Shown here piece by piece: positions 1 through 30,491 of a stretch of DNA of 43,181 nt. Location: assembly GCA_003244275.1 (NCBI GenBank), contig QHCF01000015.1, positions 1-43,181 of the forward strand, written 5' to 3'. Source of the stretch: Acidimicrobiales bacterium. GTDB taxonomy: Bacteria; Actinomycetota; Acidimicrobiia; Acidimicrobiales; QHCF01. The position numbers and the translations under genes were made by a program. The first letter of the stretch is position 1; every line of letters begins with the position of its first letter. The notes below the pieces were generated by a model. It made no database searches. It was not told the origin of the DNA and saw only the letters and a program-made list of their open reading frames with translations.

Positions 1-122
1 CCCGCCAGACCGCCACACCAACCCGCACACAGGATGCACAAGGGTGCCGAGGGGGTTACTGTTCCCGTAGTGCGCTGTGGGCCAAGGCTGTGTTTGCCCC
101 GTCCGGTGAGGAGGGCGGGACA
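1..122. other. left edge, upstream of relaxase gene
   Basis: No gene is seen here. The last bases carry the relaxase ribosome binding site (GAGGAGG near 108-114). MobF elements often keep oriT next to the relaxase, so part of an oriT could lie here or just left of the window, but I see no diagnostic inverted repeat or nic site. No GGGACA boxes of the kind found at 19.8, 32.6, 36.6 and 38.4 kb are present. Confidence 0.4.
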
Positions 123-3100
123 ATGATGAGCGCCCACAAAATCGGGGCCGAACATGTCAATTATTACCTCTCTTACGTTGAGCGGGGGGGTGATGCCGGG
201 CGATGGCTCGGCAAGGGCGCAGAAGCACTCGGCCTCACCGGCGAAGTGACCCCGGAAGCCTTTGCCAATCTCGCGGAGGGCCGGCAGCCCGACGGCACCA
301 AGCTCTTGGAACGCATCCACGCCGATCGGGTCATGGGGTGGGACATGACAATGTCGGCCCCCAAGTCTCTCTCCTTGTTGGCTGTCCTCCACCCCGACGA
401 GGAGATGCGAACCGCACTACGAGACGTCCACGACCGTGCCGTGGCGGCGGGGTTGGCCTACCTAGAAGACGTCGGGGGCGCAGCTCGCCGGGGCTACGGC
501 GGGCGAGATGGCCATGTTGGAGCGCAGATGGTCATCGCTGGCTTCGTGCACAAGACATCTCGGGAGGGCGAGCCGGATCTGCACGAGCACGGCATCATCC
601 TCAACGTGGGCCTTGGTGAGGACGGCCGCTGGACCTCCATCGACTCGCGGTGGGCCTACGCCCACAAGGCCGGCGCCGAAGCCATCTACCGCTCGGAGCT
701 CTACAAAGGAGCAGCCGAACTCGGCGTGGTGTGGGAGGCACCCGACGTCCATGGCAACCGGGAGGTGGCCGGGTTCAGTCGAGCAGAACTGCGGGATTGG
801 TCGACCCGGCGCGCCAACATCGAAGACGAACTGGCCCGTACCGGCGGGTCGGGCCGGCGGGCGGCCGAGGCGGCGGCACTGGCCACCCGCAAGACCAAGG
901 TTGACGTGGAGTTCACCGCCCTCGTCGAGCAGTGGCGGACACGGGCCCGGGACGAGGGTCTGAGCCCCCGGCGTCTGGCCAAGATGGCCGGGGGCTCAGA
1001 CCGGAGGCTGTCGCTGTCAGACGAGGAACTCTTGCGAGCCAAGGACCAGATTCTGAGCCTCGGGGACGGTGGCCTCCTGGAGGGTGGCTCGGCCTTCACG
1101 GTCGATGCCGTCGTGAGGGCCTGGGTGGATCATCTGCCCAGCGGGGCCAGCCGAGAATACGTCGAGGAGCTGGTTGAAGACACCCTGGATGACCCTCGGG
1201 TTGTCCCGTTGGTAGTGGCCGACCACGAGGGGCACGTCCTGACTGGCGAACACGGTATGCCCAAGAACGCCAAGACCCTGCGGCTGGTGCGTAGCGAGGA
1301 CTTGGAAGCGTCCCGCTGCCAGCTGCGCTATTCGACTCAGGCCATGCTGGCCATGGAGGCCAGGGTGATAGACGCCGTGGGTGCCACCCGTCAAGCCGGT
1401 GTGGCCATGGTAGATCCCGGCCTGGTGGAGGCAGTGCTGGCCCGTCATCCGACTTTGACCCTGGACCAGGTGGAGATGGTCAGAGCCATTACCACCAGCG
1501 GGCATGGGGTCGACGCCGTAGTCGGGCCACCAGGCTCGGGCAAGAGCTTCGCCATTGGCGTGGCCCGAGAGATTTGGGAACAGGCTGGCTACCGCCTCCA
1601 AGGTTCAGCTCCGTCGGGCAAAGCGGCGGTGGAACTCGGGTCTGGGGCGGGTATCGACTCCACCACCCTGGCCGCCATCGTGGCGCCCAATACCCCCACC
1701 AGCATCGTCAAGGGCGGGGTCCTGATCCTCGATGAAGCCGGCATGGCCAACACCTTGGACATGGATGCCGTCTTGGCCATGGCCCGTCAAGCGGGGACCA
1801 AGGTTGTGGCCCTGGGGGATCCTCGCCAGATAGCGGCCGTAGGGGCGGGGGGGACATTCGCAGGGATCGTCGAGCGCTTTGGCGCCTCGGAGCTCACCGA
1901 GAATGGTCGTCAGGCCGAAGACTGGGAACGAGCGGCCATTAAGGCCCTGCGGGACGGCCGCTCCGGTGAGGCCGTCGCATCCTACGTAGCTCATGGCCGG
2001 CTGGTGGTGGCCGACGTTCCCGAGGATCTGATGAGTGGCTGTGTCACTGATTGGTGGGCCGCCAGGCCTGAAGGCGAGGTGGCAATGTACGCCGCCACCC
2101 GGGCCCAGGTCTGGCGTCTCAACGCGTTGGCCCGGGCCCGTATGGCCGAGGCCGGCCAGCTCTCTGGCCCGGAGATGGTGGTAGGAGCCGTCAGCAGAGG
2201 TGGCTACGCCTTGCCCGAGCGCACCTTTGCGGCTGGTGATGAGGTCTTGTTGGGCAAGAACCGGGCCAAGGTAAGCGGTGATGTGGTTGTCACTCTGGCC
2301 GACGGTACCCGCCGTCACCAGGGAATCAAGAACGGGCAGCGGGCTCGCATCGTCGAGGTAGATGGCCAGTCCGGCCAGGTCACCGTCACTCACCAGGACG
2401 GCCGGGTTCTGACCTTGGCCAAGGACTACGTCGAGCAATATCTGGCCCACGGCTATGCCATCACTGCCCATAAAGCCCAAGGTGAGACCGTGGGCGAGGC
2501 TGGTCGGGTGGCCGCACTGGGGATCATTGCTGAGGCCGACCGGCGCAAGGGCAAGGCCTTCGTTTACGGGTTGGCCGACGCCGAGCTCGGCCTGGTCATG
2601 GCCAGCCGGGCTACCGACTCGACTCGCTTCTACGTGCTCGCCACTGCCGAGACCCATCTCTACGACGAGGGTTCTCAGATAGAGCCGGTCGACCCCGCCG
2701 CCAGCCTGGCTCGTTCCTGGGGCCGCTCGGCAGCTCCGGGCATGGCTGGCGATGAATTGGAACGAGCCCGTGTGGTCAAGCGTCTGGCGGCGGGCTTCTC
2801 CGCCAAGGACTTGGCAGAGCGACGGGACTCACTGGTCGCCCTTGAGCGAGGCGACCAGGATCCGGCGGTCGCCCTCGAGGTGGCGCGGTCTCAGCGAGAG
2901 GCGGCCAGGACCGAGGTCGAGGCGGCCAGACGCACTCTGGCCGAGGCCATCTTGGACATAGAGGACGCCCGGGAGGTACCCACCCCTGATGCGTCCACCA
3001 CAAATGAGCCCACACTGGTGGATGACCGCCTACTCCTGAGCGTACGCCCAGAGCCAAACCGGCCCGGTGGCTCTGAGCCAGCGCCCACCACTCCAGGGCT

Positions 3101-3812
3101 ACCCAGCCAGGCGGCTGATGTGGTTTCGCCTGATCGCCGGGTCATAGAAGCCGAGGCCAGGGCTGAGGCGGCGCTGATTGCCTCCCGTACGGCCGAGGCG
3201 GCTCTACGGCTGGTGGAGGCGGCGCAGAGCCGTCGAGCGGCTGCCGTGGCTGCCACAGAAGCGGAGATAGGCGGCGATCGCCGCCGTGTCGCTGCCGATC
3301 TGGCCTTACTCGACGAGGCTTTGGCCACCCAGCGCCGGTGGTCGCTGGATGCCCTTGCCGCACAACCTCCAACCTGGGCGGCCGACCTCATCGGAGCCCG
3401 GCCCTCCGAGCGGGCGTCGGCATTGCGCTGGCGCGAGGGGCTCACGCTCATCGACGATGTACGAAAGACCGCCGGCTTCGATCCAGCTGCGCAAGACGAC
3501 GACCCTATGGTGAGGGCCTTGGGTCAACGACCAGACCAACCCTTTGCGCGGCCGGGCTGGGACCATCACCGCGCCTGTTTGCAACGAGTCAGGGTCGACT
3601 TGGGCCTCGAGGTGCCCGACTCCGTGGCGGTCGGCCAAGAAACACCAGCGACCGAGGAGCGCGCCGCTGCTCTGGAGCGCCTTACCGAGGCCTCCCGGCG
3701 ACGCTGGCAACGCCCAGCTCAGTCTGGGCCGAACCGGCTTCGCCGATCCGACGTGTCCCCCCAGTTGGACCCACCGAATCCGCGCTCAGGTCGTCCTAAC
3801 GTCGACCTTTGA
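123..3812 (+). CDS. MobF/TrwC-family conjugative relaxase-helicase
   Basis: A 1229-residue protein that would nick oriT, bind the 5' end covalently and unwind the transferred strand. The N-terminal TrwC domain has tyrosines at about 14, 15 and 18 (NYYLSY) and a metal-binding histidine cluster around 150-158 (DLHEHG). The helicase half is RecD/TraI-like, with Walker A VGPPGSGKS near 466, Walker B LILDEAGM near 534 and a late motif ITAHKAQGET near 777. The last ~350 residues are Ala/Glu/Arg-rich and probably helical. I start it at ATG 123 because GAGGAGG lies 8 bases upstream; an in-frame GTG at 90 lacks this. The tandem ATG at 126 is also possible. The gene converges on the transfer operon with a 27-base gap, so it is transcribed separately. 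Family assignment is firm; the oriT is not identified. Confidence 0.95.
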   Translation: MMSAHKIGAEHVNYYLSYVERGGDAGRWLGKGAEALGLTGEVTPEAFANLAEGRQPDGTKLLERIHADRVMGWDMTMSAPKSLSLLAVLHPDEEMRTALRDVHDRAVAAGLAYLEDVGGAARRGYGGRDGHVGAQMVIAGFVHKTSREGEPDLHEHGIILNVGLGEDGRWTSIDSRWAYAHKAGAEAIYRSELYKGAAELGVVWEAPDVHGNREVAGFSRAELRDWSTRRANIEDELARTGGSGRRAAEAAALATRKTKVDVEFTALVEQWRTRARDEGLSPRRLAKMAGGSDRRLSLSDEELLRAKDQILSLGDGGLLEGGSAFTVDAVVRAWVDHLPSGASREYVEELVEDTLDDPRVVPLVVADHEGHVLTGEHGMPKNAKTLRLVRSEDLEASRCQLRYSTQAMLAMEARVIDAVGATRQAGVAMVDPGLVEAVLARHPTLTLDQVEMVRAITTSGHGVDAVVGPPGSGKSFAIGVAREIWEQAGYRLQGSAPSGKAAVELGSGAGIDSTTLAAIVAPNTPTSIVKGGVLILDEAGMANTLDMDAVLAMARQAGTKVVALGDPRQIAAVGAGGTFAGIVERFGASELTENGRQAEDWERAAIKALRDGRSGEAVASYVAHGRLVVADVPEDLMSGCVTDWWAARPEGEVAMYAATRAQVWRLNALARARMAEAGQLSGPEMVVGAVSRGGYALPERTFAAGDEVLLGKNRAKVSGDVVVTLADGTRRHQGIKNGQRARIVEVDGQSGQVTVTHQDGRVLTLAKDYVEQYLAHGYAITAHKAQGETVGEAGRVAALGIIAEADRRKGKAFVYGLADAELGLVMASRATDSTRFYVLATAETHLYDEGSQIEPVDPAASLARSWGRSAAPGMAGDELERARVVKRLAAGFSAKDLAERRDSLVALERGDQDPAVALEVARSQREAARTEVEAARRTLAEAILDIEDAREVPTPDASTTNEPTLVDDRLLLSVRPEPNRPGGSEPAPTTPGLPSQAADVVSPDRRVIEAEARAEAALIASRTAEAALRLVEAAQSRRAAAVAATEAEIGGDRRRVAADLALLDEALATQRRWSLDALAAQPPTWAADLIGARPSERASALRWREGLTLIDDVRKTAGFDPAAQDDDPMVRALGQRPDQPFARPGWDHHRACLQRVRVDLGLEVPDSVAVGQETPATEERAAALERLTEASRRRWQRPAQSGPNRLRRSDVSPQLDPPNPRSGRPNVDL

Positions 3813-3839
3813 TCGATTCAACGCTCCGCTCAACACCGA

Positions 3840-10086: not shown

Positions 10087-12150
10087 CTAGGCGGCCGCCT
10101 TGGGCTTAGTCGGCGGCTTCCCGGGTCGCACCGTGCGCCTGGCGGCCACCACTGGGCGCTGCACTGGCTGGTGTTCGCACCTGGTGGTCTCGGTTCCCGA
10201 GCGCGCCTTTGCCACCAACCGGGACACGGCGTGGCGGGCAGCCCCGACGACGCCGACAGGGAGGCTGGCTGTGCGAGCCAACCTGGTTGGATGGGCCTGG
10301 GGCTTTTCGTCTTGAGGATCCTCGGGTGTTATCCCTGTGATCCGCGTGGCCTCGGCCAGGGCCGCTCGGACCGCCGAGGCGATGGGTCGGCGCCACCAGG
10401 GATCAAGAGCCGCCTCGACGATAGGAGTGTGCTGATGGATGATGAGCGCCCGGCCCTTGGGCAGGGTCCTCACTTGGGAAGCACTCAGGGCCGGGATACG
10501 GCGAAGACTGCTCGACGTGCTAGCCGCTCCCTTGCCTCGGCTGCGCGACATGGTCTCTTGGTCCACGTCACCGGCCAGGTTGGCGATGCGAGTCAGGTCC
10601 TCGATGGTGGCCAGACCACCAAAGACCACCTTGGTGGTGGCCGCGTCCCACATGGCGTCGGTGGCGGCCTGGCCCCAGCGGGCCCGGCCCTGGCCGAGGG
10701 ATTGCAGGACGGCCACCGTGGGTATCCCCGTTCCCCCGCCGTCGGATAACAGGCTGGGCAGGCTGGGCAGCGGGGCGATGTTGGCCGCCTCATCCAGCCA
10801 CAGCGCCAACGGCGGGTCCAGGCGGCCGTAGGGGGAGCGAGCGGCCAGCTTGCGGGCGGTTGCCACCAGGTCCTCAATCAGGGCGGTAATGAGCGGGGCG
10901 ATGGACAACTGGGCGTCGGCCGAGCCCACCAGATACAGCGTGCCGCGCCGGCGCAGGAAGGTCTCGGCATCGAACTCGACTCCCGCCGGAGGCGAACAGG
11001 CGTCGAGTACCCGGGGATCGGCCAATGAGTCAAACGCCCTGCGGACCTGGGTCCAGATCTGGTCACGCTGGCGAGCGTCGGCCGTGGCCTGGTCATGGAG
11101 CTCCTCGGCCCACCCGGGCGCCGCCTCCGGATGAACCCGCAAGATGTCGACCGGGGTGGGATCACCCGGGTGTCCCACCCAGCGCAACACGTCTCGAATC
11201 GGCCGGCCGTCCAAGTCGGCGGCGTGGAGGTAGCACCGCACGACGGCGGCGGTTTGTCCCTGCCAGTAGTCACCGTTGGTCACGCTGCCGGTGTTGAGGC
11301 CGGCGGCGGCGGCAAAACCCTTGGCTCGCAGGATGGCGGTCAGTGAGTCCCGACAGCCCTTCTGAGGAGCCCAGCGCAGCCCGTCGGGCCACTGGGCTGA
11401 ACCCTGCGGGTCAAAGACCGCCACCGGGCCGTGCTCGGCCCGGGCACAGGCCGTGTGCAGCAGGGTGTCGGTGCGGGTGGCGGTGACCACTGCCGCACCC
11501 GGCGAGGCCAGCACTCCGGGGATGATGAAGTTGACCCCCTTGCCCACCCGTGGCGGCCCCAGGACCAGACACGACTCCTCCAGGCTGCTCCACAGCCCGA
11601 TGCCCGACGCCACGTCGCGGCCCAAGCCGATGGCGACGTCTTCGGGTGAGACCTGCCGGCCGGCCAGGGACGGGCGAATCTGAGGGGCACGGGCTCGTAC
11701 TGCTCGGGCCGACAGGTTGCGTCGAACCTGGGCACGATTGGCGAACCCGGGGGGGGAGCGACGCCCCCGGGCACCATCGGTCAGCGTGGCCTGGGTAATC
11801 GCACGGGTCGACCACACCCGCCAGCCGGCCCAGGCTCCCAGCCCGGCGGCCGTTTGAACCACCGCTGTCGTAGACCAGTAAGCCACCGGGCCGGGTAGGT
11901 CGGCCCTGGCGGTGATCTGCCAGGCCAGGGCGGGGTGAGTGACATTGCCGAGGGACGCGGCTGCCGACAGGACCACCGCTGGTACAGAGAGCCCCAACAG
12001 ATGGTGACCGCCAAAGACCAACGCAGCCAGGGTGGCACCTATCCCGAGTACGGCGAGCTCGGCCACCAGGACACCCACCACGACCAGGATGAAGGTGTCG
12101 GTTCCCCCGTCGTAGGGGGGGGCCGCTATCGGACGTCGGGTCATGGTCAT
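10087..12150 (-). CDS. VirD4/TraD-type coupling protein
   Basis: 687 residues. This ATPase would bring the relaxase-DNA complex to the membrane channel. Hydrophobic segments lie at about 20-45, 50-70 and 90-110 (FILVVVGVLVAELAVLGIGA). They are followed by a P-loop, VLGPPRVGKGVN, near 215, Walker B LWLDEAANIAPLP near 450, and the TraG/TraD-like stretch TVAVLQSLGQGRARWG. The C-terminus is basic. The start ATG 12150 overlaps the whiB stop as ATGA and has GGAGG 8 bases upstream; ATG 12144 is an alternative. A longer open frame upstream overlaps whiB and is rejected. Confidence 0.93.
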   Translation of the reverse strand: MTMTRRPIAAPPYDGGTDTFILVVVGVLVAELAVLGIGATLAALVFGGHHLLGLSVPAVVLSAAASLGNVTHPALAWQITARADLPGPVAYWSTTAVVQTAAGLGAWAGWRVWSTRAITQATLTDGARGRRSPPGFANRAQVRRNLSARAVRARAPQIRPSLAGRQVSPEDVAIGLGRDVASGIGLWSSLEESCLVLGPPRVGKGVNFIIPGVLASPGAAVVTATRTDTLLHTACARAEHGPVAVFDPQGSAQWPDGLRWAPQKGCRDSLTAILRAKGFAAAAGLNTGSVTNGDYWQGQTAAVVRCYLHAADLDGRPIRDVLRWVGHPGDPTPVDILRVHPEAAPGWAEELHDQATADARQRDQIWTQVRRAFDSLADPRVLDACSPPAGVEFDAETFLRRRGTLYLVGSADAQLSIAPLITALIEDLVATARKLAARSPYGRLDPPLALWLDEAANIAPLPSLPSLLSDGGGTGIPTVAVLQSLGQGRARWGQAATDAMWDAATTKVVFGGLATIEDLTRIANLAGDVDQETMSRSRGKGAASTSSSLRRIPALSASQVRTLPKGRALIIHQHTPIVEAALDPWWRRPIASAVRAALAEATRITGITPEDPQDEKPQAHPTRLARTASLPVGVVGAARHAVSRLVAKARSGTETTRCEHQPVQRPVVAARRTVRPGKPPTKPKAAA

Positions 12151-12416
12151 GACACACGCCTCCGGCTGTCGTCCTTCTCGGATCGCCTCTGCTCGACCAA
12201 CGAGCGCAGGAATGCCCGCTCTGGCGGGGTGGTCCCTCCCCAGACCCCATAGTCCAGCCGGTCGGGTCGGGCCATTGCCTCCTCCAGGCAGTCCGCTCGC
12301 ACCTGACACCCTCGACATATGGCCTTGGGTTGCTCAGCGTCTTCGCTTGGCTCGGGGTAAAACAACTCATGCGGGCATCCCCGACAGGCCGCCTCAACCC
12401 ACCACCGCGGCCTCAC
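12147..12416 (-). CDS. WhiB-family iron-sulfur regulator
   Basis: 89 residues. The [4Fe-4S] ligands are C11 (or C14), C34, C37 and C43, matching the WhiB pattern C-x2-C-x5-C after a distal Cys. The family turn GVWGG is at 57-61, followed by a basic C-terminus. WhiB proteins are actinobacterial redox/NO-responsive transcription factors that usually work with a sigma factor. The start GTG 12416 has GGAGGAA upstream and overlaps the methylase stop as GTGA. It ends overlapping the coupling-protein start. Its place inside the transfer operon suggests it regulates the element or host genes in response to redox state; targets are unknown. Confidence 0.93.
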   Translation of the reverse strand: MRPRWWVEAACRGCPHELFYPEPSEDAEQPKAICRGCQVRADCLEEAMARPDRLDYGVWGGTTPPERAFLRSLVEQRRSEKDDSRRRVS

Positions 12417-13255
12417 GACACTTCCTCCAGGCGTCCCTGAACCCACAGGGGGCGGTTCGACCACACCACCTCGGTGGCCCGGCTGAGAGCTCCTCCGCTC
12501 ACATTTGCTGTCATCTTGAGGGTTGGTCGCTCTGCCCGCCACCATCCCTCATAGAGCTCGTCATAGAGCGAGCTCGGGTAACCCGAGATCAGCACCGCCG
12601 CCTGGCAGGCATTGAGCGCCTTCGCTAGTTGGCGATGCTGGTCCTCGCCTGCCATGTCATGGCGGTAGTCCCGGCCACCGGTCCCAGTCCCGGCCCGACG
12701 GGTCGAGCCCAGATAGGGAGGATCGCAGTAGACCACGGTGGCAGGGCCGTCCAGCGAGTCCAGAACCTCCAGGGCCGGTCGACACTCAATCTGGACATTG
12801 CGCAGTCGCATGGCCACCGCCCGCATCCGCTCGACCATGGAAACCGCGGTGGCTGCTCGGGAGGCTGAGCGGTTCAGTGTCACCGACCAACCGTGGCCGG
12901 CACCTGATACCGATTGGACCGAGCGAACCCACCACCGCCGGGCCAGTTCCACCTCGTCGGTGTGCTCGCTCGGCGCCGCCTTGGCCAGGTGAAGCTCCTC
13001 CCGGGCGTAGGGAGTCAGTTCGCAGGCCCGAATCAAGTCCGCCGGGTGATCCCGTAGTAGCCGGAAGAAGCGAATCAGCTCCCCGTCGATGTCATTGAGG
13101 ATTTCGATGGCCGATGGCTGCTTGGCCAGCAGCACCGCCGCCGAGCCTGCGAATGGCTCAAGATAGATACGGTGGCTTGGCAGCATCGCCTCACACCAAA
13201 GAGCCAGGCGCTGCTTGGAACCGAAGTAGGCAAACGGTGGTCGTAGCTGGCTCAT
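12413..13255 (-). CDS. D12-class DNA adenine N6-methyltransferase
   Basis: 280 residues. It has the Dam-like order: FAYFGSKQRLA at the N-terminus, SAM-binding YLEPFAGSAAVLL around 30-42, and catalytic VVYCDPPYLG near 177. It would methylate adenine in DNA; the target site is not predictable by eye. No restriction endonuclease is adjacent, so it is a solitary enzyme, probably protecting the element during transfer together with the methylase-helicase. The start ATG 13255 lies 2 bases after the stop of the preceding gene. A longer upstream frame overlaps that gene and looks like shadow. Confidence 0.93.
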   Translation of the reverse strand: MSQLRPPFAYFGSKQRLALWCEAMLPSHRIYLEPFAGSAAVLLAKQPSAIEILNDIDGELIRFFRLLRDHPADLIRACELTPYAREELHLAKAAPSEHTDEVELARRWWVRSVQSVSGAGHGWSVTLNRSASRAATAVSMVERMRAVAMRLRNVQIECRPALEVLDSLDGPATVVYCDPPYLGSTRRAGTGTGGRDYRHDMAGEDQHRQLAKALNACQAAVLISGYPSSLYDELYEGWWRAERPTLKMTANVSGGALSRATEVVWSNRPLWVQGRLEEVS

Positions 13256-13257
13256 CT

Positions 13258-13910
13258 TCACGCCACCGTGGCCGCGACGGCCATCCCGGCGCGCAGGGCC
13301 TGCATGACCGGCTCCGTAAGGCGGTCCTCCACTCGGCTCACTGCGGCCAACAGTTCTGGACGGGCCTCGGCCAACGACCGGGTGACGACGTGGTCGGGGC
13401 CGTAGCACCAGGCGGCCATGGCCAGGTGATGGCCGGGGTTGACCGGTAATCCTGACGGGCTGGTGGTCAGATCGGCATAGGTCACCAAGTCGGTCACCTC
13501 GCTGTCCTCTCTGGGGAACTCCGCCAGCTCGGCACCAAGGCCCCACCACTCAGCCTCGTACCTGGCCCCGTGTGATGGGCGACCAGGCTTGCTATGCGAG
13601 GATGGCCGAGGCTGGCCACATAGCAGGCACCGTCGAGGGGATGAAACGCTGTGGCGATGATGCCCGGCGCACAGCCCACGTCGTGCAACCAGGCCGCCGC
13701 CACCGCCACCTCGCGTTCCGCTGGGGCCAGCACGGTACTCAGTGCCCTGGCCGTCGCGGCCACACCTTGGGTATGGGCCCAGGTGTACTCCAGTGGCGCC
13801 AGCAGCCGACCGGCCTCCCGCTCAGCCCACTCATGCAGACTGGTAGTGAATCGCGGACCAAGCGATACCCTGCCCTCTCGATTATGTCGCCATGTCTGGG
13901 TGTCAGTCAT
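13258..13910 (-). CDS. HD-domain phosphohydrolase, apparent frameshift
   Basis: Read as two pieces. The first (13910 to about 13570) has the HD signature: HTQGVAATA, AAWLHDVG, HPLDGA and LVAHHTG. It then runs into a nonsense tail ending at 13494. Moving to the other frame after HHTG gives RYEAEWWGLGAELAEFPRED, the expected HD-family continuation, and stays open to a stop at 13258. One extra G in the GGGG run (13566-13569 on the plus strand) would restore a ~217-residue protein. So the gene is either mutated, miscalled in the homopolymer, or slips during expression. Family members hydrolyse phosphate esters; the substrate is unknown. The start ATG 13910 has GGAGG upstream. Alternatively, GTG 13497 (GTGA overlap) could start a separate 79-residue protein. 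Confidence 0.75.
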
Positions 13911-13921
13911 CAATAGCCTCC

Positions 13922-14398
13922 TTAGCCAGTACCGACATTGGGGTGGAAGTGGACGACATAGGCGCTACCGGGGTCACCCCAGGCGGCCAGGAACGATGCC
14001 CAGCCAGCCTGAGCAGCAGCCAGCGGGTGTTCGGAAATCACATCAACCACGATCTGGCCGGACTGGTCGCCGGCAATGGTGGCCACGATCCCGTTGCCCT
14101 GATAGGGCAGGTGCTGATAGGCGGGACGAGCGGCGAGGGCCGCCGCCTGGGCTGCTTCTTGGTCTGGCGTAGGTTCCTGCTGGGCATTGATCTGCGCCGG
14201 CCCTGTCGTGGTCGTGCTGATGCTCGTCGTGGTGGCAGCGAGGGGAGCTGGCGCGGGGTGTCGGTCTGAACCACGTCCTACCGACGAAGGCGGACTGGCG
14301 GCGACCGGCGAAGCCGAGTGGGGTGTGGGCCAAAGCCGGGCTACCCCAATAGCCACCACGGCCACGATCGTCAGGGCAACCCCAAGGCGGCGCATCAT
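13922..14398 (-). CDS. membrane-anchored hypothetical protein
   Basis: 158 residues with one N-terminal hydrophobic segment (VALTIVAVVAIGVARL, about 7-22), then a Pro/Ser/Thr-rich linker and a compact C-terminal region (about 70-158). The topology is a single-pass protein with its bulk outside the membrane, as expected for an accessory of the transfer channel. I do not recognise the family. The start ATG 14398 overlaps the CHAP gene stop as ATGA. The stop lies just before the ribosome binding site of the HD gene. Confidence 0.8.
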   Translation of the reverse strand: MMRRLGVALTIVAVVAIGVARLWPTPHSASPVAASPPSSVGRGSDRHPAPAPLAATTTSISTTTTGPAQINAQQEPTPDQEAAQAAALAARPAYQHLPYQGNGIVATIAGDQSGQIVVDVISEHPLAAAQAGWASFLAAWGDPGSAYVVHFHPNVGTG

Positions 14399-15459
14399 GG
14401 CGTGGGCTGGGCGTAGCCGTAGATGGGGGCTCGCTGGCCATGGCTGGTGGCCGTGGCCGGCATGTACGGACCCACTCGGGAGACCTGGTGGGCGTAGTTG
14501 CCGTCCACCTCGGTGATCTCCCCACCGACCCCCACGGCGGTTATGACCCCGACGTGGTCCGACTGCCCCGGCCCCGGCCCCGACCCGAAAAAGACCAGAT
14601 CACCGGGAGAAGGCGTGGCCGTGGCCGGGAACACCTTGCCGTGGGCCTGGGCCCACGTGTAGGGAAAGCCCGAGTAGGCGTTAGACGGGATGCCTACGCC
14701 GGAATGGCCCCACACCCAGGTGGCAAACAGCGCGCACCACTCCTCGCACACCGGCCCGTAGGGGGTGCAGTTCGACCCAGGTGGGGCATCATGGGTCCCC
14801 ACCTGGGAGTTAGCCAGCGCCACGATGGCGTCGGCGCCGGCGAAGCTGGCCGGTACGCAACCACCGACCGAGTCCGATACGAGGGAAGCACTGGCACCAC
14901 CAGAGGTCGGGGCGCCGGGGACCAGGGCAGCAGATTCAGGAGTGCCGGGAGGGGCAGGGGCCAGCGACACCAATCCACTCCCAGAGACCCCAAGGGCCGC
15001 CGCCGTCTGCCACCACAGATCGATGGCCCGGGCGGTGGGGGGACTTCCCACCGGCCCTCCGCCCCGACCCACGTCGAGCTTCTCAGCGATCACGCTCTTC
15101 CCCCCATAGCTGATCTGGAGCAACGTGTGTGGTGCCAGGCCGCCCAGGGCCGAGTAATTCAGACCGGCCGAGGACAACTCGGCAAAGGCGTAGTGCCCAG
15201 TCAGGTGGTCCACATAGGCGCCGTGGTCGGTCGCGGTGGAGGGGTCGCCCGGGCCGCCGTATTGGGTGGCGCCGACTACCTTCCCGCCGGGTGGAAGCGC
15301 GGCACCCGTCAGACTGGCGTCAGCTCCACACGACGAACCCTGACCCGCTGATCCCACGGCCACCGTCAGCATCATCAGGGGTAGGGCCACCATGGCCACC
15401 CCGATGCCGGCAATGGCGAGCACCCCCACCCCGGCTGAATGTGACTTCGAAGCCGCCAC
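14395..15459 (-). CDS. CHAP-domain peptidoglycan hydrolase of transfer system
   Basis: 354 residues. An N-terminal membrane anchor at about 10-38 (VLAIAGIGVAMVALPLMMLT) is followed by an extracellular region. The C-terminal CHAP/NlpC-like domain has the cysteine in EEWCALFATWVWG, SPGDLVFFGSG, the histidine in SDHVGVI, and EVDGNY. It would cut peptidoglycan locally so the conjugation channel can pass the wall. The start is GTG 15459, 9 bases after the VirB4 gene stop. It matches the wall-hydrolase position in Gram-positive conjugative systems. Confidence 0.88.
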   Translation of the reverse strand: MAASKSHSAGVGVLAIAGIGVAMVALPLMMLTVAVGSAGQGSSCGADASLTGAALPPGGKVVGATQYGGPGDPSTATDHGAYVDHLTGHYAFAELSSAGLNYSALGGLAPHTLLQISYGGKSVIAEKLDVGRGGGPVGSPPTARAIDLWWQTAAALGVSGSGLVSLAPAPPGTPESAALVPGAPTSGGASASLVSDSVGGCVPASFAGADAIVALANSQVGTHDAPPGSNCTPYGPVCEEWCALFATWVWGHSGVGIPSNAYSGFPYTWAQAHGKVFPATATPSPGDLVFFGSGPGPGQSDHVGVITAVGVGGEITEVDGNYAHQVSRVGPYMPATATSHGQRAPIYGYAQPTP

Positions 15460-15468
15460 GGCCAGGAC

Positions 15469-19745: not shown

Positions 19746-19906
19746 GCTTGCTTCCTCTCACTACGGGCCGCCGGCCTGTTGCCGAGCGGCATCTCGTAGT
19801 CAGAGCATGCGCTTGGGGTGTCCCGAAAATTGTCCCGAAACGTGTCCCGTCCAGGGATTCATGTCCCGACGGGACACGATTCGTGTCCCGAAAATTGTCC
19901 CGATCC
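19746..19906 (-). promoter_or_regulatory. GGGACA-box array and leader of the transfer operon (copy A)
   Basis: Seven boxes. Read on the minus strand, six are GGGACA and one is inverted. On the plus strand TGTCCC starts at 19819, 19831, 19843, 19862, 19884 and 19896; the inverted box is at 19871. In the direction of transcription the spacings are 12, 13, 9, 19, 12 and 12. The last box is followed by the block CGCATGCTCTGACTACGAG, then an ATG at 19792 opening MPLGNRPAAR, then the ribosome binding site. Copies B and C share the boxes, the block and the leader. It should be the operator/promoter of the transfer operon; the regulator is unknown. Confidence 0.85.
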
Positions 19907-23979: not shown

Positions 23980-24406
23980 ACCGGGTCACCGCCTGGGCCG
24001 AACCCTGCCCGCCCACGCTCAGGGCGCTGAACCCCAGGAGCCCCATCAACGTGGTGGGTACCGGGTATGACGACACCCGGACATTGACCATGTTCCCACT
24101 CACCGAAGTGATCCCGGGGTGGCCGGCCTGGACCATGTAAGCCTCAGCGGCCGCTACCCCTGCGGAGGCATCAGGGACGATCGGGCCAGTGTGCAATGAC
24201 GGGCGGGACAAAGCATCGGCCCCGGCCCGAGCCGCCTGCTCGCCCTCGGCGGTGGCCTGCTCGTGGGCGGCAATGGCGCGCCCGCCGTCAACCACCACCC
24301 CGACCAGCAAGAACAAAGCCGTGGCCAGGACGGCCACCATGGCGGTGAACACCCCTGCTTCGTCTCTATGCCTGGCGGCCGCGGCTCGGCGGATGGCGTC
24401 AACCAC
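23969..24406 (-). CDS. TadG-like pseudopilin/assembly protein
   Basis: 145 residues. The N-terminus RDEAGVFTAMVAVLATALFL is the charged-then-hydrophobic leader of the TadE/TadG families, followed by VDGGRAIAAHEQATAEGEQA, a typical TadG helix. It is expected in the membrane as part of the Tad pilus. The start GTG 24406 has GGAGAG upstream and overlaps the previous gene by 8 bases. Confidence 0.8.
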   Translation of the reverse strand: MVDAIRRAAAARHRDEAGVFTAMVAVLATALFLLVGVVVDGGRAIAAHEQATAEGEQAARAGADALSRPSLHTGPIVPDASAGVAAAEAYMVQAGHPGITSVSGNMVNVRVSSYPVPTTLMGLLGFSALSVGGQGSAQAVTRYGR

Positions 24407-24827
24407 GGCGATAGCTCTCCATGGGGGCCCGGCCCGAGCCGGTCAGCGTGACCGATCCGGGCACGCCGATCAGGCCGTTGTCGATGAGACCGACGTTGCA
24501 GGACACCTTGACCCCCACCGAGCCGCCCGGCGCGAACGCGGCTGTGTCTACTGCGACATTGAGCACTCGGCAACGGGCCGGGCCAAGGGTTCCGGTGGCC
24601 GTCTGGAGGGCCTGGGGCTGCGCCTGGGATGACGTCGCCACGATGGCCGCCGCCTGGGCCGCGTTGCGGGCCGCGTCGGTGACCTGGCCCTTGGCGTAGA
24701 GAAGCTGGCCCATGGTCACAGTGGCGGCGATGAAGCCGACCAGCAGCGTGATGGCGAACAGAGCCGAAGCCAGGACCTGGCCTTCCTCGCCGCGGTGCCC
24801 ATATTCCGGCGGCATAATCTCACTCAA
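24399..24827 (-). CDS. TadE/TadF-like minor pilin
   Basis: 142 residues. A short charged N-terminus (HRGEEGQVLA) leads into one hydrophobic helix, ALFAITLLVGFIAATVTMGQ, then a helical and beta-rich outer part with two cysteines. This is the TadE/F layout. The start is either TTG 24827, overlapping the upstream stop as TTGA like its neighbours, or ATG 24815; neither has a strong ribosome binding site. It is the second of three tandem TadE/G-type genes. Confidence 0.8.
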   Translation of the reverse strand: MSEIMPPEYGHRGEEGQVLASALFAITLLVGFIAATVTMGQLLYAKGQVTDAARNAAQAAAIVATSSQAQPQALQTATGTLGPARCRVLNVAVDTAAFAPGGSVGVKVSCNVGLIDNGLIGVPGSVTLTGSGRAPMESYRRG

Positions 24828-25222
24828 CCCGAGACCCGGTACTGCTGGGCAGGGGCCTGGCTCTTGCCGGTGACGGAAACCGTGAAGAACGGGACCACGG
24901 TGGCCACGTGGCCAGAGACCTGCACCAACGTCTCCGCTCCGGACGTACCCACGGCCACCTTGGTGTCAGTCACCATGTTCCCGCCCAGGCCACCCAGGGC
25001 CGCCTGGGCCGCGCCGTGGGCCTGCGTGGCGTCGCCCCCGAATGCTCGCACCGACTGGCCGCCGGCCGCCGCAGCCGCCTGAACGGCTTGGGCGGCCATG
25101 GCCCACATGGCCAGCTGGATGATCAGCCACAGCGCCACGAACACGGCCGGGAACACGAAGACCAGCTCGGCGGACGCGTTCCCGGCCTCCCCCGCTCCAC
25201 GCCGGCCGGGCGGTGCCGGCGT
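24824..25222 (-). CDS. TadE-like minor pilin with ACG in start position
   Basis: About 132 residues. AGNASAELVFVFPAVFVALW is a clear TadE N-terminal motif, followed by a membrane helix and an alanine-rich helix. No ATG, GTG or TTG occurs in frame between the previous gene's stop and this motif. ACG 25222-25220 lies 5-6 bases after AGGAG, and the previous stop TAG is part of that site (TAGGAG), so it sits exactly where a start belongs. An alternative is GTG 25200 plus one missing G in the run at 25189-25193, which would give MERGEAGNASAEL. The reading frame itself is secure; the first codon is not. Confidence 0.75.
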   Translation of the reverse strand, partial: TPAPPGRRGAGEAGNASAELVFVFPAVFVALWLIIQLAMWAMAAQAVQAAAAAGGQSVRAFGGDATQAHGAAQAALGGLGGNMVTDTKVAVGTSGAETLVQVSGHVATVVPFFTVSVTGKSQAPAQQYRVSG

Positions 25223-25230
25223 GGCGTCTC

Positions 25231-25455
25231 CTACGAGCCCGCCCCGTTGATGTGGTTGACAATGTTGCGGGTGTGGCTCTCCAAGGCGTTGAAGATCAGT
25301 CCGCCGATGAGGATGGCGGCGATGACCGCCAGGCCAGTCAGGATCACCCAGGGCGACTGGACCAGGCCCCGCTCGTCTTGGTGGGCAGCCTTGGCCCGCT
25401 GCACCACCCAGCCCTTTGTCGTCTCCCACGCCAACAAGCACCTCACAGCCAACAT
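25231..25455 (-). CDS. small single-helix protein, Flp-type pilin candidate
   Basis: 74 residues. A charged segment (AKAAHQDERG) is followed by one hydrophobic helix, SPWVILTGLAVIAAILIGGL. Size and place between TadC and TadE genes fit the major Flp prepilin. However, the classical Flp cleavage motif with Glu at +5 is not clear, so it may be another small Tad membrane protein. The start ATG 25455 has AAGGAG 7 bases upstream. A gap of 74 bases precedes it, the loosest junction in this part of the operon, which suggests independent translation at a higher rate. Confidence 0.7.
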   Translation of the reverse strand: MLAVRCLLAWETTKGWVVQRAKAAHQDERGLVQSPWVILTGLAVIAAILIGGLIFNALESHTRNIVNHINGAGS

Positions 25456-25529
25456 CGGATACTCCTTTGTCCCCGTTCCTTGTTTGGTTGGTCCGTGCGA
25501 CCCGAACGGGTTTCTGGTCGACCACGACT

Positions 25530-26402
25530 TCACAGGGCGCCTGACAGCTGGTGCACGGCAGGCGCTCCCAAATAGATCATGTATGCCAGCACCACGACGA
25601 TGCCGGGGGCGAACAGACGCTGACTGACCCGATTGGCCTCAGCTCGGGCGGCCGCCAACTCGGCATCTCGTGAGGAGGCCGCCAGGGCCTGCATCGACAA
25701 GCGAGCCCGGGCCCCTTCGGTACCGGCCAGTTCCAAGCTGGCGGCCACCTGGCCCAGGATGGGAACCTCGAGGCGGCGGCCGAGGTCCTCCAGCGCCGTC
25801 CACATGGTCACGGCATTCATGCCGGCCTCGGCCAGGACCTCTCCGATCCAGACCAGGACCCAGTCCGAGCCGATCTGGGCGGCCTGCTGGGTGGCTTCCT
25901 CCAGGCCCACGCCGGCGGCCATGGCCAGGTTGGTGAGGCGCAGCCAAACTGTTACTACCCGACCGAAGTGCGCCCTGCGCTTGGCTGCCTCCCCCCACAG
26001 CGAGGTGGCCGTGCCCAGAGCGCCAAACACGGCCATTGCCAGCACACCGAGGATTCCGGCCGACGGGGCGGGATGCAACCCCACGGCCTCGGCTACCAGC
26101 CAGGCAAACAGCCCGAACCCGCCCAACACAACCGCGTTGCTGGCCAACCTGGCTCCCCAGGCAGTTGGCTCCAGGTCGCAGATGGCCAAGTCGGCGGCCA
26201 ACGAATTGCGTCGGCCCAGGCGCTCGACGACCTTCATGAGCCAAGCGCCGGCGACTACCGGAAGATTGGCCGGAGGACCAACGGGGCGGCCCTCCAGCCG
26301 AGCCAGCTGAGCGCCCAGGGTGGGTCGTACCGGGATCACCGTGGCAGCCAGCACGGCCAACCCCACCCCGGCCAGGGCGCCACAAACAACGAACCAAATC
26401 AT
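25530..26402 (-). CDS. tadC: TadC-like type II secretion F-domain protein
   Basis: 290 residues with an N-terminal helix, a pair of helices at about 90-140 and a C-terminal helix (GIVVVLAYMIYLG). Between them is a T2SSF-type cytoplasmic region with LAMAAGVGLEEATQQAA. It would form the inner-membrane platform of the Tad machine with the TadB-like protein. The start ATG 26402 overlaps the TadB-like stop as ATGA. TadC versus TadB is judged by order and length. Confidence 0.85.
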   Translation of the reverse strand: MIWFVVCGALAGVGLAVLAATVIPVRPTLGAQLARLEGRPVGPPANLPVVAGAWLMKVVERLGRRNSLAADLAICDLEPTAWGARLASNAVVLGGFGLFAWLVAEAVGLHPAPSAGILGVLAMAVFGALGTATSLWGEAAKRRAHFGRVVTVWLRLTNLAMAAGVGLEEATQQAAQIGSDWVLVWIGEVLAEAGMNAVTMWTALEDLGRRLEVPILGQVAASLELAGTEGARARLSMQALAASSRDAELAAARAEANRVSQRLFAPGIVVVLAYMIYLGAPAVHQLSGAL

Positions 26403-27250
26403 CGTTCAGCCTCCATCAGGGCGATCCTCTCGGCGCCACGGGGCCGGACCAGGCGGGCCATCAACCAGATGCCGGTGGCCATAAGAATGAAGACCAACCC
26501 AAGCACCAGCTGGCCGGCCATCGTCGAGTACCAGGTCAGCAGCGGTGTGGAGCGACCCACCAACCAGAAGGCACCCATGAAGGCCACCGAGCCAATAGCC
26601 ACCGTGCGCATCTCGGAGCGAGCCGAAGCTCTACTGGCGTCCACCTCTCGGCGTTGCGATGCCTCCCGGCGCGCTTCTTTGGCCAGTGCGTCCAGTGCTC
26701 CGGATATCTGCGAAGCATCTCGCTCGGCTGACATGACCAGCGGGGCGATGACCATGTCGGCGGTCGGATCGGCCAACTCCGTGGCCAGGGTCCGCAGGGC
26801 ATCAGCCGGGCGTACGCCCACCTTCACGGCCACTGACATTCGCCCCAGGGGGCCTTCAAGGGGGCCGCTGTTCACTCGCGCCGTAACCTGTAATGCCTCG
26901 GCCAGGCCCTTGGACACCATCATGGTGTCGCGCAACTGCTCGGTCCAGACCGCTATGGCTTCCAGTTTGGCTACCACGTCGGCCTGAGACGGCCCCGAGA
27001 ACAGGCCGGGCAGCAGGCTTACAGCGGCAGCGGCGGCGAGCCCGGCCGCCGGCCACCCGGTGACCCAACCAACGACGGTGCCAAGCACGATCCCAGCGGC
27101 TGCTCGTACCACCACTACCCGAGACGGTAGGGCCCTCCGGGCCGGCGGCCCTGGCCTGCGGAGCCGAAAAGGCACGACCAGTACCCCCAGCCCGGCCCCG
27201 ACCAAGCCGCCCGCCAGGGCCATCAGAGCAGCGCTGGGATCAACCTGCAT
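26399..27250 (-). CDS. tadB: TadB-like type II secretion F-domain protein
   Basis: 283 residues. Helices lie at about 8-26, 48-85, 220-240 and 248-268. The T2SSF region has AVWTEQLRDTMMVSKGLAEA and ASQISGALDALAKEARREAS, the usual TadB pattern. It is the inner-membrane partner of the TadA ATPase. The start ATG 27250 overlaps the upstream stop by one base (TGATG). Confidence 0.87.
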   Translation of the reverse strand: MQVDPSAALMALAGGLVGAGLGVLVVPFRLRRPGPPARRALPSRVVVVRAAAGIVLGTVVGWVTGWPAAGLAAAAAVSLLPGLFSGPSQADVVAKLEAIAVWTEQLRDTMMVSKGLAEALQVTARVNSGPLEGPLGRMSVAVKVGVRPADALRTLATELADPTADMVIAPLVMSAERDASQISGALDALAKEARREASQRREVDASRASARSEMRTVAIGSVAFMGAFWLVGRSTPLLTWYSTMAGQLVLGLVFILMATGIWLMARLVRPRGAERIALMEAER

Positions 27251-28221
27251 CAGCTGCTCCTGGTGATGACGGATTCGATCTGATCGACGTTGAGCGCTGC
27301 CGATGACCTGCCCGTGAGACCTGGCAACGTCCCGCTCTGACCCACATTGCTGGTCCAGCTCACCGTGTAGCCCACGGTGGCGGTGACCGTGTAAGGGCCT
27401 CGGCCGTCAGTTGACTGGTGGTAGGTATATGCACAGCCCGACGGGTCAGCTCCTCCTCCAGTCGGGTCCACGGCCAGCGACCAAGGTGTCCCCGGGCCGT
27501 TACACGACACCGAGCCGCCGTCGCCCATCTCGAAGCTCACCTGGCTGGTAGGTGTGGCCGTAGTGGTGGCCGATACTCCTCCCGCCGAAGCAGTCACTGA
27601 CTGCGGTGACAAGCCGCCACCGAGCCACAACCAGGTGAGGAAGTTGACCGGAGTATCCGGAGAGTGACCGTCCAGGGTGTTCGGGCTCGTCTGGATGCTT
27701 GGCGCCACCAGGTTGAGCTGGTTGGCGGCCTGGAGGGCCAGTTGGCCCGGCGAGGGCGGCGGTGGCCCGGTTGGGCCCTTGGCCGCCGCCGGCGTCGGCC
27801 CCCCCATAGGCACGAAACAAAACGCTGTGCCGCCACAGGCGGCCGTGTTGGCGCCCGAGGTGTTATTGGGATTGACCACGGCGTACAGCCCCTGTTGACC
27901 GTTGGGGCCAGGGACAAGCCCCGTCGGGAGATAGATGTACGGCGGGGGGCCTGTAGGTCCTCCCCCTCCCCCGCTGCTGTGCCCCGACCCACCGCCACCC
28001 GAACTGTGGTTGCCACTGCCGGAGTTGGCGGCCGCCGCACGTCCCCCACCCCCGGGTGACCCACTGAGGACGTTGACCGAGGCTCCGACACCCGACGGGT
28101 TGTAGTTAACGCTGCCTGAGGCACTTACTCCTGTTACATACGCCCAAGCAGGAGCGGCGGTGGTTACCAACAGCCCACACGCGATCAAGCCAGTAGCTGT
28201 CAATCGCCTCAGTCGGGGCAC
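27250..28221 (-). CDS. secreted Gly/Pro-rich protein of the Tad operon
   Basis: 323 residues. The signal peptide is LIACGLLVTTAAPAWAY, with likely cleavage after AWA. The next ~100 residues are Gly/Ser/Pro-rich and disordered. The C-terminal part is beta-rich with two or more cysteines, and FEMGDGGSVSC resembles a PKD-like strand, which is uncertain. It is probably exported and attached to, or part of, the pilus surface; family not recognised. The start GTG 28221 overlaps the end of the lipoprotein gene by 13 bases, with AAGGTGG upstream. Confidence 0.78.
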   Translation of the reverse strand: MPRLRRLTATGLIACGLLVTTAAPAWAYVTGVSASGSVNYNPSGVGASVNVLSGSPGGGGRAAAANSGSGNHSSGGGGSGHSSGGGGGPTGPPPYIYLPTGLVPGPNGQQGLYAVVNPNNTSGANTAACGGTAFCFVPMGGPTPAAAKGPTGPPPPSPGQLALQAANQLNLVAPSIQTSPNTLDGHSPDTPVNFLTWLWLGGGLSPQSVTASAGGVSATTTATPTSQVSFEMGDGGSVSCNGPGTPWSLAVDPTGGGADPSGCAYTYHQSTDGRGPYTVTATVGYTVSWTSNVGQSGTLPGLTGRSSAALNVDQIESVITRSS

Positions 28222-28772
28222 AAGGGCACCACCTTGTCTTGGCCGGACTGAAGCATCCAAGTGCCTGTCGGACCTGGCACCATGACCGCCGTCACGTCAA
28301 CATTGGCGGCCTGGCCCAAGCTGGTGGTTAGCGGCTTACCGTCTTGGCCGTAGGCAATGAGACCAGGACCGGGCTCGCACGAATGTACGACCGCACGGGT
28401 GGCTGAGTAGGCCACGACCACCGGCTGGCCCAAGTCCTGGTGTCCCCGAACGGTTACTCCCGTCCCCTTCTCTACTGTCAGAAGTGCCCGGTTCTGGCTC
28501 AGTGCCGGATCGACGCTGGTCGCAACCAAGGCCGGATCACTGGCGTTCATCGCCAAACTGGCGTTTCCGAACGCCGTTTCCGCTGCTACATAGCCGGTGA
28601 TCACTGCTTGCTGTGGCGTGGTGGTAGTTGTGGGGGCCAGCGTCGTTGTCGTCCTCGGGGGCAAGTGGATCACCCCCGTGGCGGTTGGGCTGGAACAGGC
28701 CGCCAACCCCAAAGCCAAGGCCGCCATGGCGCCCGCCGACCCTGCTCTTGTGACCTTCCTATGCATTGTCAT
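28209..28772 (-). CDS. lipoprotein of the Tad operon
   Basis: About 187 residues. A lipoprotein signal with lipobox LAAC lies within the first 30 residues (AALALGLAACSSPTATG), then a Thr-rich linker (TTTTLAPTTTTT) and a ~130-residue folded region. It should be lipid-anchored outside the membrane. Actinomycete Tad loci often lack an outer-membrane secretin, and such lipoproteins may help the fibre cross the wall; that role is inference. The start ATG 28772 overlaps the 46-residue gene's stop as ATGA; ATG 28766 is also well placed. Confidence 0.82.
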   Translation of the reverse strand: MTMHRKVTRAGSAGAMAALALGLAACSSPTATGVIHLPPRTTTTLAPTTTTTPQQAVITGYVAAETAFGNASLAMNASDPALVATSVDPALSQNRALLTVEKGTGVTVRGHQDLGQPVVVAYSATRAVVHSCEPGPGLIAYGQDGKPLTTSLGQAANVDVTAVMVPGPTGTWMLQSGQDKVVPLCPD

Positions 28773-28909
28773 TCCCTTCCCTTGTACCGCGCCTGTCTGG
28801 CGGACTCCGTGACACCCATATATATGAGCCACGACACCATCACAATGAAACCTGCAATCAAAAAGATGAAGACGGACCACTCAGCAGCCCACACAAACAA
28901 CGAACCCAT
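28769..28909 (-). CDS. 46-residue single-pass membrane protein
   Basis: A short gene fitting exactly between its neighbours: ATG 28909 overlaps the TadA stop by one base (TGATG), and its TGA overlaps the lipoprotein start as ATGA. The protein begins MGSLFVWAAEW, has a hydrophobic core VFIFLIAGFIVMVSWLIY and a basic end (ARQARYKGRE). Coupling at both ends makes it very likely real. It may be a small partner of TadA or of the inner-membrane platform. Family not recognised. Confidence 0.75.
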   Translation of the reverse strand: MGSLFVWAAEWSVFIFLIAGFIVMVSWLIYMGVTESARQARYKGRE

Positions 28910-30300
28910 CAGTGGACCCGGCGATCTGGATGTGTCCAACCGTTGGCAGCCAGCAACTCGGCCGTGCGTACCGTGGGGGGCATTCGCAGCACAGCCCGTC
29001 GATCCGGGCCAGGGGCCCAGACCTCCTGGGACCGCACACTACGATAGTCATCCTCAGTGCCTCTCAGTACCTCTCGCACTGACGACACCACCCGCTCCGT
29101 ATGTGGTTCCGACCCATTGCCATCGACCCAAATCTGTTCAAGGTGGACAACGAAGTGGACCGTGTTAGAGATCATTCGGTTGATCGCCTGGGGCGCCACT
29201 GGTCGCTCAGCGGCGCCGGCGTACATCGTCAGGCGCTCCAGGGCATCGGCTGAGTCCTCGGCGTGGATGGTGGCCATCGACCCGGCCCGCCCGGACGACA
29301 TGGCTCGCACCATGGCCACCACCTCATCGCCCAGCAGCTCGCCCACCATCACCCGGTGGGTGTTGAAACGGACGCTTTGCTGCACCTCGTAGGCCATGCT
29401 CACCTCGCCCAGGCCCTCGCTGTTGGCGTCTCGCTGCTCGTGGGTCAGGCACCGGGGATGGCGCTCGGGCATCCGGTCCAGGCCCAGCTCCTCCACCAGT
29501 TCAACCAGGTAAAGACTCTCTTGGGGCGGAATCTCAGCGCACATGCAACGCATGAAGGTCGTCTTCCCGGCGTCTACCGCTCCGGAGAACAGCCAGTTCT
29601 TCCTGGCGATCACCCCCGCCCTCAGGAAACGAGCCAGGTCGGCGCCGATGGTGCCCAGGTTGACCAGGTCGGCCAGGGTCTGGCGCATCAGGCGGTGACG
29701 CCGTATTGCCACATGAGGGCGACGGGACACCCCCACACAGGCCGACAGCCGGCTACCCTCGGGCAGGCGCAGGTGTACGTAGGGAGCGTTCGCGCCGAAT
29801 TGGCGGCCGTAATGAGAAGCCAACGCTCGTATCCGCTCGACCAGCTCACCGTCGCTGCGCACCACTGGATCCCGCCGTTCGGTGCGACCTCCGGCGAAAT
29901 CGACAAAGATCGCCTCGCTGCCGATGATGGTCACGTTCTCGACGTCTGGGTTCTCCAGGTACTCCAAGAGCCAACCGATCCCCGACATCTCGGCCAGGAC
30001 GTAACGCACCAGCTGATCGACAATCCCGTCGTCACCGACGATCCGCTCCTCCGAGATCACCCGGCGGACCTCCGTTTCCAGGTCAGCCGGCAACGCATCC
30101 TTGTCCCCACCCGTGCGGGCCACGCGCCGGGAAACCTCAGCCTGGATCCGCCGGACCATCTCCGGGTCGGGGGGGGCTGGTCGGGCCGTACGGAGGGCCG
30201 GGGTTGTGGCCAACGGCCGGCCCCTCGGTCCCGGTGGGCCAGCCGGCACGTATCCCCTGGCCCCTGGTGGCCCCGGCGGCCGGCCATTACGTCCGATCAT
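28909..30300 (-). CDS. tadA: TadA/CpaF-type pilus assembly ATPase
   Basis: 463 residues. A Pro/Gly/Arg-rich N-terminus of ~50 residues precedes the CpaF/VirB11-like secretion ATPase. Features include the N-terminal-domain stretch ENPDVENVTIIG, Walker A SGAVDAGKTT near 240, the Asp-box-like region YLVELVEELG, Walker B-like RVMVGELLGDEV, and the His-box SMATIHAED. It powers Tad/Flp fibre assembly. The start ATG 30300 has GAGGAAGG about 6 bases upstream and overlaps a 64-codon frame as ATGA. Confidence 0.92.
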   Translation of the reverse strand: MIGRNGRPPGPPGARGYVPAGPPGPRGRPLATTPALRTARPAPPDPEMVRRIQAEVSRRVARTGGDKDALPADLETEVRRVISEERIVGDDGIVDQLVRYVLAEMSGIGWLLEYLENPDVENVTIIGSEAIFVDFAGGRTERRDPVVRSDGELVERIRALASHYGRQFGANAPYVHLRLPEGSRLSACVGVSRRPHVAIRRHRLMRQTLADLVNLGTIGADLARFLRAGVIARKNWLFSGAVDAGKTTFMRCMCAEIPPQESLYLVELVEELGLDRMPERHPRCLTHEQRDANSEGLGEVSMAYEVQQSVRFNTHRVMVGELLGDEVVAMVRAMSSGRAGSMATIHAEDSADALERLTMYAGAAERPVAPQAINRMISNTVHFVVHLEQIWVDGNGSEPHTERVVSSVREVLRGTEDDYRSVRSQEVWAPGPDRRAVLRMPPTVRTAELLAANGWTHPDRRVH

Positions 30301-30491
30301 GGTCTGCCTTCCTCTTGGGCTATCCCGGCCTGGTGGGCGAGCAGGAATGACCTCAACGAGTGGTGGCTCGGCTGACCTTGGGCTGGGGCCGCCGGCCCAG
30401 TCGAGCACTCTGAGCGGGCCGGTGCCGTGCCTGCGACGCTTGGTGCTGTGCCTTGTCCTGACCTGTCCACGTCCACTCTGGAGACCTTCAT
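30297..30491 (-). CDS. possible 64-residue coupled gene
   Basis: The frame starts at ATG 30491, overlapping the CpaE-like gene's stop as ATGA, and stops at 30297, overlapping the TadA start as ATGA. This two-ended coupling is the pattern of real genes here. The sequence (begins MKVSRVDVDRSG) is Ser/Pro/Arg-rich with no recognisable domain or membrane helix, so it may be only a translational bridge. Kept as tentative. Confidence 0.4.
   Translation of the reverse strand: MKVSRVDVDRSGQGTAPSVAGTAPARSECSTGPAAPAQGQPSHHSLRSFLLAHQAGIAQEEGRP

Follow-up and report, generated by a model that had tools for sequence, protein, structure and literature searches.

A WhiB-like gene coupled into the transfer operon of a predicted integrative conjugative element from Acidimicrobiales

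The element and its transfer operon

The window, by which we mean the whole stretch of 43,181 nucleotides analysed here, is an entire contig (C188) of a 2.27 Mb Acidimicrobiales genome in 247 contigs. This host genome is a MAG (completeness 88%, contamination 6.5%), and the whiB case described below is that of one element. Outside the transfer operon the window contains:

90..3812, plus strand: TrwC/MobF-type relaxase with helicase domain
24399..30501, minus strand: Tad-type pilus genes (TadE-like, T2SSF, T2SSE ATPase)
from 32716, plus strand: PrimPol operon
37126..38394, minus strand: tyrosine integrase (ATG at 38394 chosen; the longer ORF call enters the tRNA)
38487..38562, minus strand: tRNA-Thr(TGT), presumed integration site

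Relaxase, VirB4, coupling protein (T4CP) and integrase are thus encoded on a single element, which marks it as a putative integrative conjugative element (ICE) whose excision and transfer are predicted from its genes. Beyond the tRNA-Thr lies otsA, which is chromosomal, and the other end of the element is off the contig. A second att site was not found; one copy is present in the window, and weak matches elsewhere in the genome resemble other sites. The Tad-type pilus genes share the element with the VirB4/T4CP transfer module. Four T4CP loci exist in the host genome (on C188, C127, C55 and C185), and only the one in the window has a WhiB-like (Wbl) gene nearby.

The transfer operon occupies positions 19745 to 3840 of the minus strand, with whiB as about its tenth gene:

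19443-19745 and 18181-19446, minus strand: two transfer-core ORFs, the first genes of the operon (o19443 and o18181)
16746-18314, minus strand: SCO6880-family protein, conserved transfer core
15469-16782, minus strand: VirB4-type ATPase, conserved transfer core
14395..15459, minus strand: CHAP-domain protein (cell-wall hydrolase type)
13922..14398, minus strand: 158-aa protein with N-terminal hydrophobic stretch, no function assigned
13494..13913, minus strand: HD-domain protein (Pfam PF01966), accessory block
13258..13497, minus strand: 79-aa ORF, accessory block, no function assigned
12413..13255, minus strand: D12-class, Dam-like DNA adenine methylase, overlapping whiB
12147..12416, minus strand: whiB-like gene, 89 aa, GTG start (ORF and Pfam Whib)
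10087..12150, minus strand: VirD4/TraG-type coupling protein (T4CP), overlapping whiB
4409-9985, minus strand: DarB-like antirestriction protein, 1858 aa (1393 bits to PHROG)
3840-4412, minus strand: conserved ORF at the operon end (o3840), with homologues in relatives

An initial sequence-only reading had named the two neighbours of whiB as a methylase and a coupling protein and had described whiB as coupled to both. The names were right, and so was the coupling: the stop codon of the D12 gene and the start codon of whiB overlap as GTGA (12413-12416), and the stop codon of whiB and the start codon of the T4CP gene as ATGA (12147-12150). GGAGG is found 7 nt upstream of the whiB GTG and 8 nt upstream of the T4CP ATG. 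However, 6 of the 12 junctions between o19443 and o3840 are 4-nt overlaps (two others are long overlaps with uncertain start calls), so that the coupling signals membership of the same operon and nothing specific to whiB. The stretch from 9900 to 20000 has no conspicuous internal promoter: 1 promoter-like site was detected there vs 0.9 expected. Because whiB lies inside the transfer operon, it should be expressed together with the transfer genes, and the operon anatomy supports the earlier proposal that its amount tracks transfer expression. The DarB-like antirestriction protein and the Dam-like methylase are encoded in this same operon.

The WhiB-like protein

The predicted Wbl ORF is intact. 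The 89-aa protein matches Pfam Whib (PF02467) with an E-value of 5.9e-17 and 62.4 bits, the gathering cut-off being 23.6, and contains all four cluster cysteines (C11-x22-C34-x2-C37-x5-C43) and a GVWGG turn (residues 57-61). It conforms to the pattern C-x22-C-x2-C-x5-C plus G[I/V]W[G/A]G; the four-cysteine motif and this turn are Wbl hallmarks according to excerpts of PMC10245118. No NCBIfam model matched the protein, and the closest solved structures are those of Streptomyces WhiB (8dy9, E 1.7e-10), WhiB4, and WhiB1. We infer that it carries a [4Fe-4S] cluster. The Whib domain, the four cysteines, GVWGG, and the aromatic sigma-contact residues are common to this protein and WhiB1-7/WhiD, but it differs from them in an extra cysteine (C14), a two-residue insertion preceding GVWGG, and a longer and less basic tail. 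C14 and the insertion might modify the interface, or the cluster itself. The C-terminal tail, ERAFLRSLVEQRRSEKDDSRRRVS, has 8 R/K and 5 D/E in 28 aa, whereas the nearest chromosomal Wbls have 8 R/K and 2 D/E in 17 aa. With the basic tail diluted in this manner, promoter-specific DNA contact may be weak, and the DNA specificity of the protein is uncertain.

The residues for contact with the sigma factor are conserved. Replacement of F31, F32 or W76 of WhiB3 by Ala abolished sigma-A binding, and the WhiB1 counterparts are F17, F18 and W60, according to the available portion of PMC10245118. F19, Y20 and W59 of the window Wbl, which also contains LFYP, align with these three WhiB1 residues, and its W5 aligns with W3 of WhiB1. 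The host sigma-70 protein, with the C-terminus ...ERIRQIEARAMSKLRHPSS, has the LRHP stretch (...MSKLRHPSS), which presumably includes the counterpart of M. tuberculosis H516. The conserved contact residues and the LRHP of the host sigma factor support sigma binding as a potential, and the window Wbl likely binds the principal sigma factor. A sensory role is a different matter. In PMC10245118, the absence of the N-terminal Trp in WhiB7 is tied to a solvent-exposed, more oxygen-sensitive cluster, and WhiB1 and WhiB3 enclose the cluster with Trp; excerpts of PMC3390391 describe the WhiB1 cluster as rather insensitive to oxygen and very sensitive to NO. Judging by the W5/W6 pair near its N-terminus, the window Wbl probably has an enclosed cluster and is less likely to be an oxygen sensor. 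The suggestion that the protein senses oxygen, NO or redox state is not supported. The Trp that encloses the cluster in WhiB1 and WhiB3 is kept (W5, next to W6).

Seven Wbls are encoded in the host genome, and the nearest relative of the window protein, on contig C81, is one of them (53% identity over 78 residues). A phylogenetic tree of 35 rows left 21 of 32 inner branches open and gave the window row a long branch. In it the window gene clusters weakly with chromosomal Wbls of the same order, of the C81 type (support 82/74), and falls into no named subclass with support. Eight rows had been dropped beforehand, namely a copy of the window gene (L006) and seven near-identical rows from one genus. 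The tree supports only a position near the C81 type.

This kinship bears on the possibility that the Wbl is a competitor of host Wbls, as the WhiB of mycobacteriophage TM4 is reported to be, and that by dampening a host Wbl function it affects cell division or prevents superinfection in the course of mating. The retained sigma-contact residues, the diluted tail and the same-order chromosomal relatives, above all the C81 type, would be in line with such a competitor. By analogy, WhiBTM4 offers a precedent, being a dominant negative that inhibits host whiB2 and causes superinfection resistance according to excerpts of PMC8612146. The TM4 work was done in mycobacteria, however, and we regard competition of this kind as unlikely.

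Distribution of Wbls among related transfer modules

An alignment of three T4CPs was used to collect 80 loci from named genomes (the best 80 of 520 confirmed), with flanking sequence of up to 10 kb per side; with a single T4CP as query against genome contigs, no close relatives were confirmed. The transfer core recurs in the searched loci, with homologues of VirB4c in 75, VirB4n in 63, o18181 in 53, o19443 in 46, and o3840 in 67. Neither motif nor HMM detected a Wbl in any of these best 80 of 520 T4CP-family loci. A motif search of 91 loci gave four chance matches, which on reading were not Wbls. The Wbl HMM, built from 43 Wbl segments with the window gene in the training set, found none in 92 loci at E 10 and recovered the window's own Wbl at 9e-26. 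Homologues of WhiB, D12, HD, 79-aa, 158-aa, and CHAP proteins were likewise absent from the searched T4CP loci at E 1e-4, although CHAP-like proteins of different sequence may be present there. In 67 loci the median distance from VirB4c to T4CP is 1045 bp, with a range of 221-8102, whereas in the window it is 3.3 kb. On an Iamia plasmid (NZ_CP050950; class Acidimicrobiia), a small helix-turn-helix gene precedes the T4CP gene instead.

Within the same order, 13 of 298 genomes, the window's included, had a T4CP match at E 1e-110, and within the phylum 8 of 396, again counting the window's, at 1e-80. Among the 19 further T4CP loci from these sets (12 from the order and 7 from the phylum; two on the same contigs as loci of the 80, some shortened by contig ends), one contained a Wbl. 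Viral contigs yielded one T4CP relative and one distant Wbl, which was left out of the tree as its motif did not fit the search pattern. Since related transfer modules mostly lack a Wbl (0 of 80 and 1 of 19), the window whiB is an accessory gene, and the picture of whiB as wired into transfer control as an integral part is weakened. The gene is intact, lies in the transfer operon, is coupled on both sides, and is missing from nearly all related modules.

The single positive locus, L206, belongs to a genome (G222) of the same order. It contains, in this order, an ArdC-like gene (a label that is a sequence reading), T4CP, an HNH gene, a conserved ORF, a 79-aa Wbl, a primase, an xis-like gene, and an integrase. 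A 29-bp repeat with 93% identity lies before the first gene (1822-1850) and before the Wbl-primase genes (5936-5964). Like the window, L206 is thus a T4CP-family element with a Wbl, a repeated short leader ahead of it, and coupling to the next gene. In contrast to the window, its Wbl is located downstream of T4CP, HNH, and the conserved ORF and is coupled to the primase gene, with an overlap of TGATG; its turn reads GMFGG, Phe replacing Trp. Such elements have thus captured Wbls at least twice, at different positions.

These comparisons allow one to weigh whether the gene might be a mere passenger, that is, a host gene of recent capture that plays no part in transfer and persists because it sits in a tight operon. 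Its absence from nearly all relatives would fit, as would a GC content (0.659) and GC3 (0.733) that match those of the neighbouring genes. However, the motifs are intact, the Shine-Dalgarno sequence is good, and another element of the same order acquired a Wbl independently (L206). Moreover, all relatives are at most 53% identical, so that none of the genes found can be its recent source. A passenger role appears doubtful.

Wbls on mobile elements are otherwise widespread. At E 1e-5, matches were obtained in 80 plasmid and 398 phage records, all below 60% identity. In 13 inspected loci of these 80 plasmid records, no annotated VirB4/T4CP operon occurred within 6-8 kb of the Wbl, which distinguishes them from the window. 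By tblastn, a VirB4-like ATPase lies about 4 kb from the Wbl of one plasmid (L177), and a DarB-like helicase (34% identity) about 2 kb from that of a Rhodococcus sp. SGAir0479 plasmid typed as MOBF (L180). No other transfer genes were found within about 1.5 kb at the 30 best class-level Wbl loci (the window's included) or at 30 loci around L206-like Wbls. As far as the accessible parts of the sources go, plasmid SCP1 has three Wbls (PMC6282962) and the Frankia AICE FeuI6863 one (PMC3218068), so that these genes, like that of the window, reside on a plasmid or integrating element. Excerpts of PMC8612146 report that Wbls are widespread in actinophages. The window protein resembles the latter and TM4 WhiB as a mobile-element Wbl, its best PHROG being phrog_472 (WhiB), but actinophage Wbls are encoded in the phage early region and the window Wbl in a conjugation operon. 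Searches of open PubMed Central papers brought up no Wbl encoded within a VirB4/T4CP operon. Thus, while the family and its element-borne members are well known, the position of this gene among transfer genes is unusual.

Three shared leaders

The operon containing whiB is preceded by a leader that recurs twice on the element:

19746..19904, minus strand: leader/operator copy A, before the transfer (whiB) operon, with repeats, palindrome, conserved block, and start codon
32540..32716, plus strand: leader copy B, ahead of the PrimPol operon and a 65-aa ORF (96% identity with A)
36610..36750, plus strand: leader copy C, ahead of a small ORF (about 83 aa), with 83% identity to B

Each leader, a new observation of this analysis, is about 160 bp long and consists of GGGACA units spaced at 12 bp, a palindrome, and an invariant block that reaches the start codon. 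The pattern TGTCCCN6TGTCCC, with one mismatch allowed, has 12 matches vs 0.56 expected. Of 148 genomes of the class, this was the only one with the triple-repeat pattern, and the leader occurs at no other place within it. Viral contigs contained no exact copy of the repeat, and a search for repeated leaders in 44 upstream regions of related T4CP loci gave a short self-match in L064 only. The three leaders look like operators of one element-wide regulon. A further sequence, TGTCCCAACAAGTGTCCC, at 38414-38431 on the minus strand, between the 3' end of tRNA-Thr and the integrase start, has the TGTCCC spacing of the leaders with a different filler.

A conserved RNA structure was considered for the leaders. 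Folding gave z-scores of -4.5 (A), -4.35 (B) and -1.56 (C), and a search for known RNA families found only the tRNA. The near-identity of A and B together with the weak value for C leaves such a structure unshown. A partnership with WhiA was also considered: GACAC, the sole sequence found for the WhiB-WhiA pair, is that of WhiA (PMC4850268), and it is contained in GGGACAC. It was rejected because only some of the repeats have GACAC and no HTH_WhiA match was obtained in the 88%-complete host genome.

The window Wbl is one candidate binder of the GGGACA array. Acting with sigma-A at the three leaders, it might form a feedback loop that governs transfer, replication by PrimPol, and the small ORF ahead of the integrase gene. 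Its own operon starts with one of these near-identical, element-exclusive leaders, and Pfam recognised no other DNA-binding regulator among the small ORFs tested. On the other hand, we know of no Wbl that binds 12-bp direct-repeat arrays, and the GACAC sequence belongs to WhiA, which the search of this genome did not find. Several element ORFs without an assigned function could be the binder, and the array is missing from L206, which has other repeats. We give feedback through the leaders a low probability. A stronger form, in which the Wbl is a cluster-gated master cofactor that switches all three leaders together with host sigma-A, seems very unlikely.

Proposed role and implications

With moderate confidence, we favour the reading that the acquired Wbl is a sigma-factor partner made along with the transfer genes, which would retune sigma-A-dependent transcription for the element. 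The ICE would have acquired an actinobacterial Wbl gene together with the genes for the HD protein and the Dam-like methylase and the 79-aa ORF, as one accessory cassette that inserted between the CHAP gene and the coupling-protein gene. Holding its [4Fe-4S] cluster, the protein would bind the host's principal sigma factor at region 4. RNA polymerase may then be drawn to some promoters or kept from others for as long as the transfer operon is active, in the donor and perhaps also soon after arrival in a new host. Candidate targets are host genes, the three shared leaders of the element, or both. The net effect would most likely be a short-lived retuning of sigma-A-dependent transcription to the element's advantage.

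Wbls are common on mobile elements, but a role is known for hardly any of them. With a Wbl in a transfer operon, there is a defined setting for asking if these proteins work for the element or redirect its host, and the same setting bears on whether cluster state gates conjugation in Actinomycetota. The shared leaders could be used as ready-made reporter constructs. If the Wbl did act as a cluster-gated cofactor, the state of its iron-sulfur cluster would set the timing of replication, transfer, and excision of the element.
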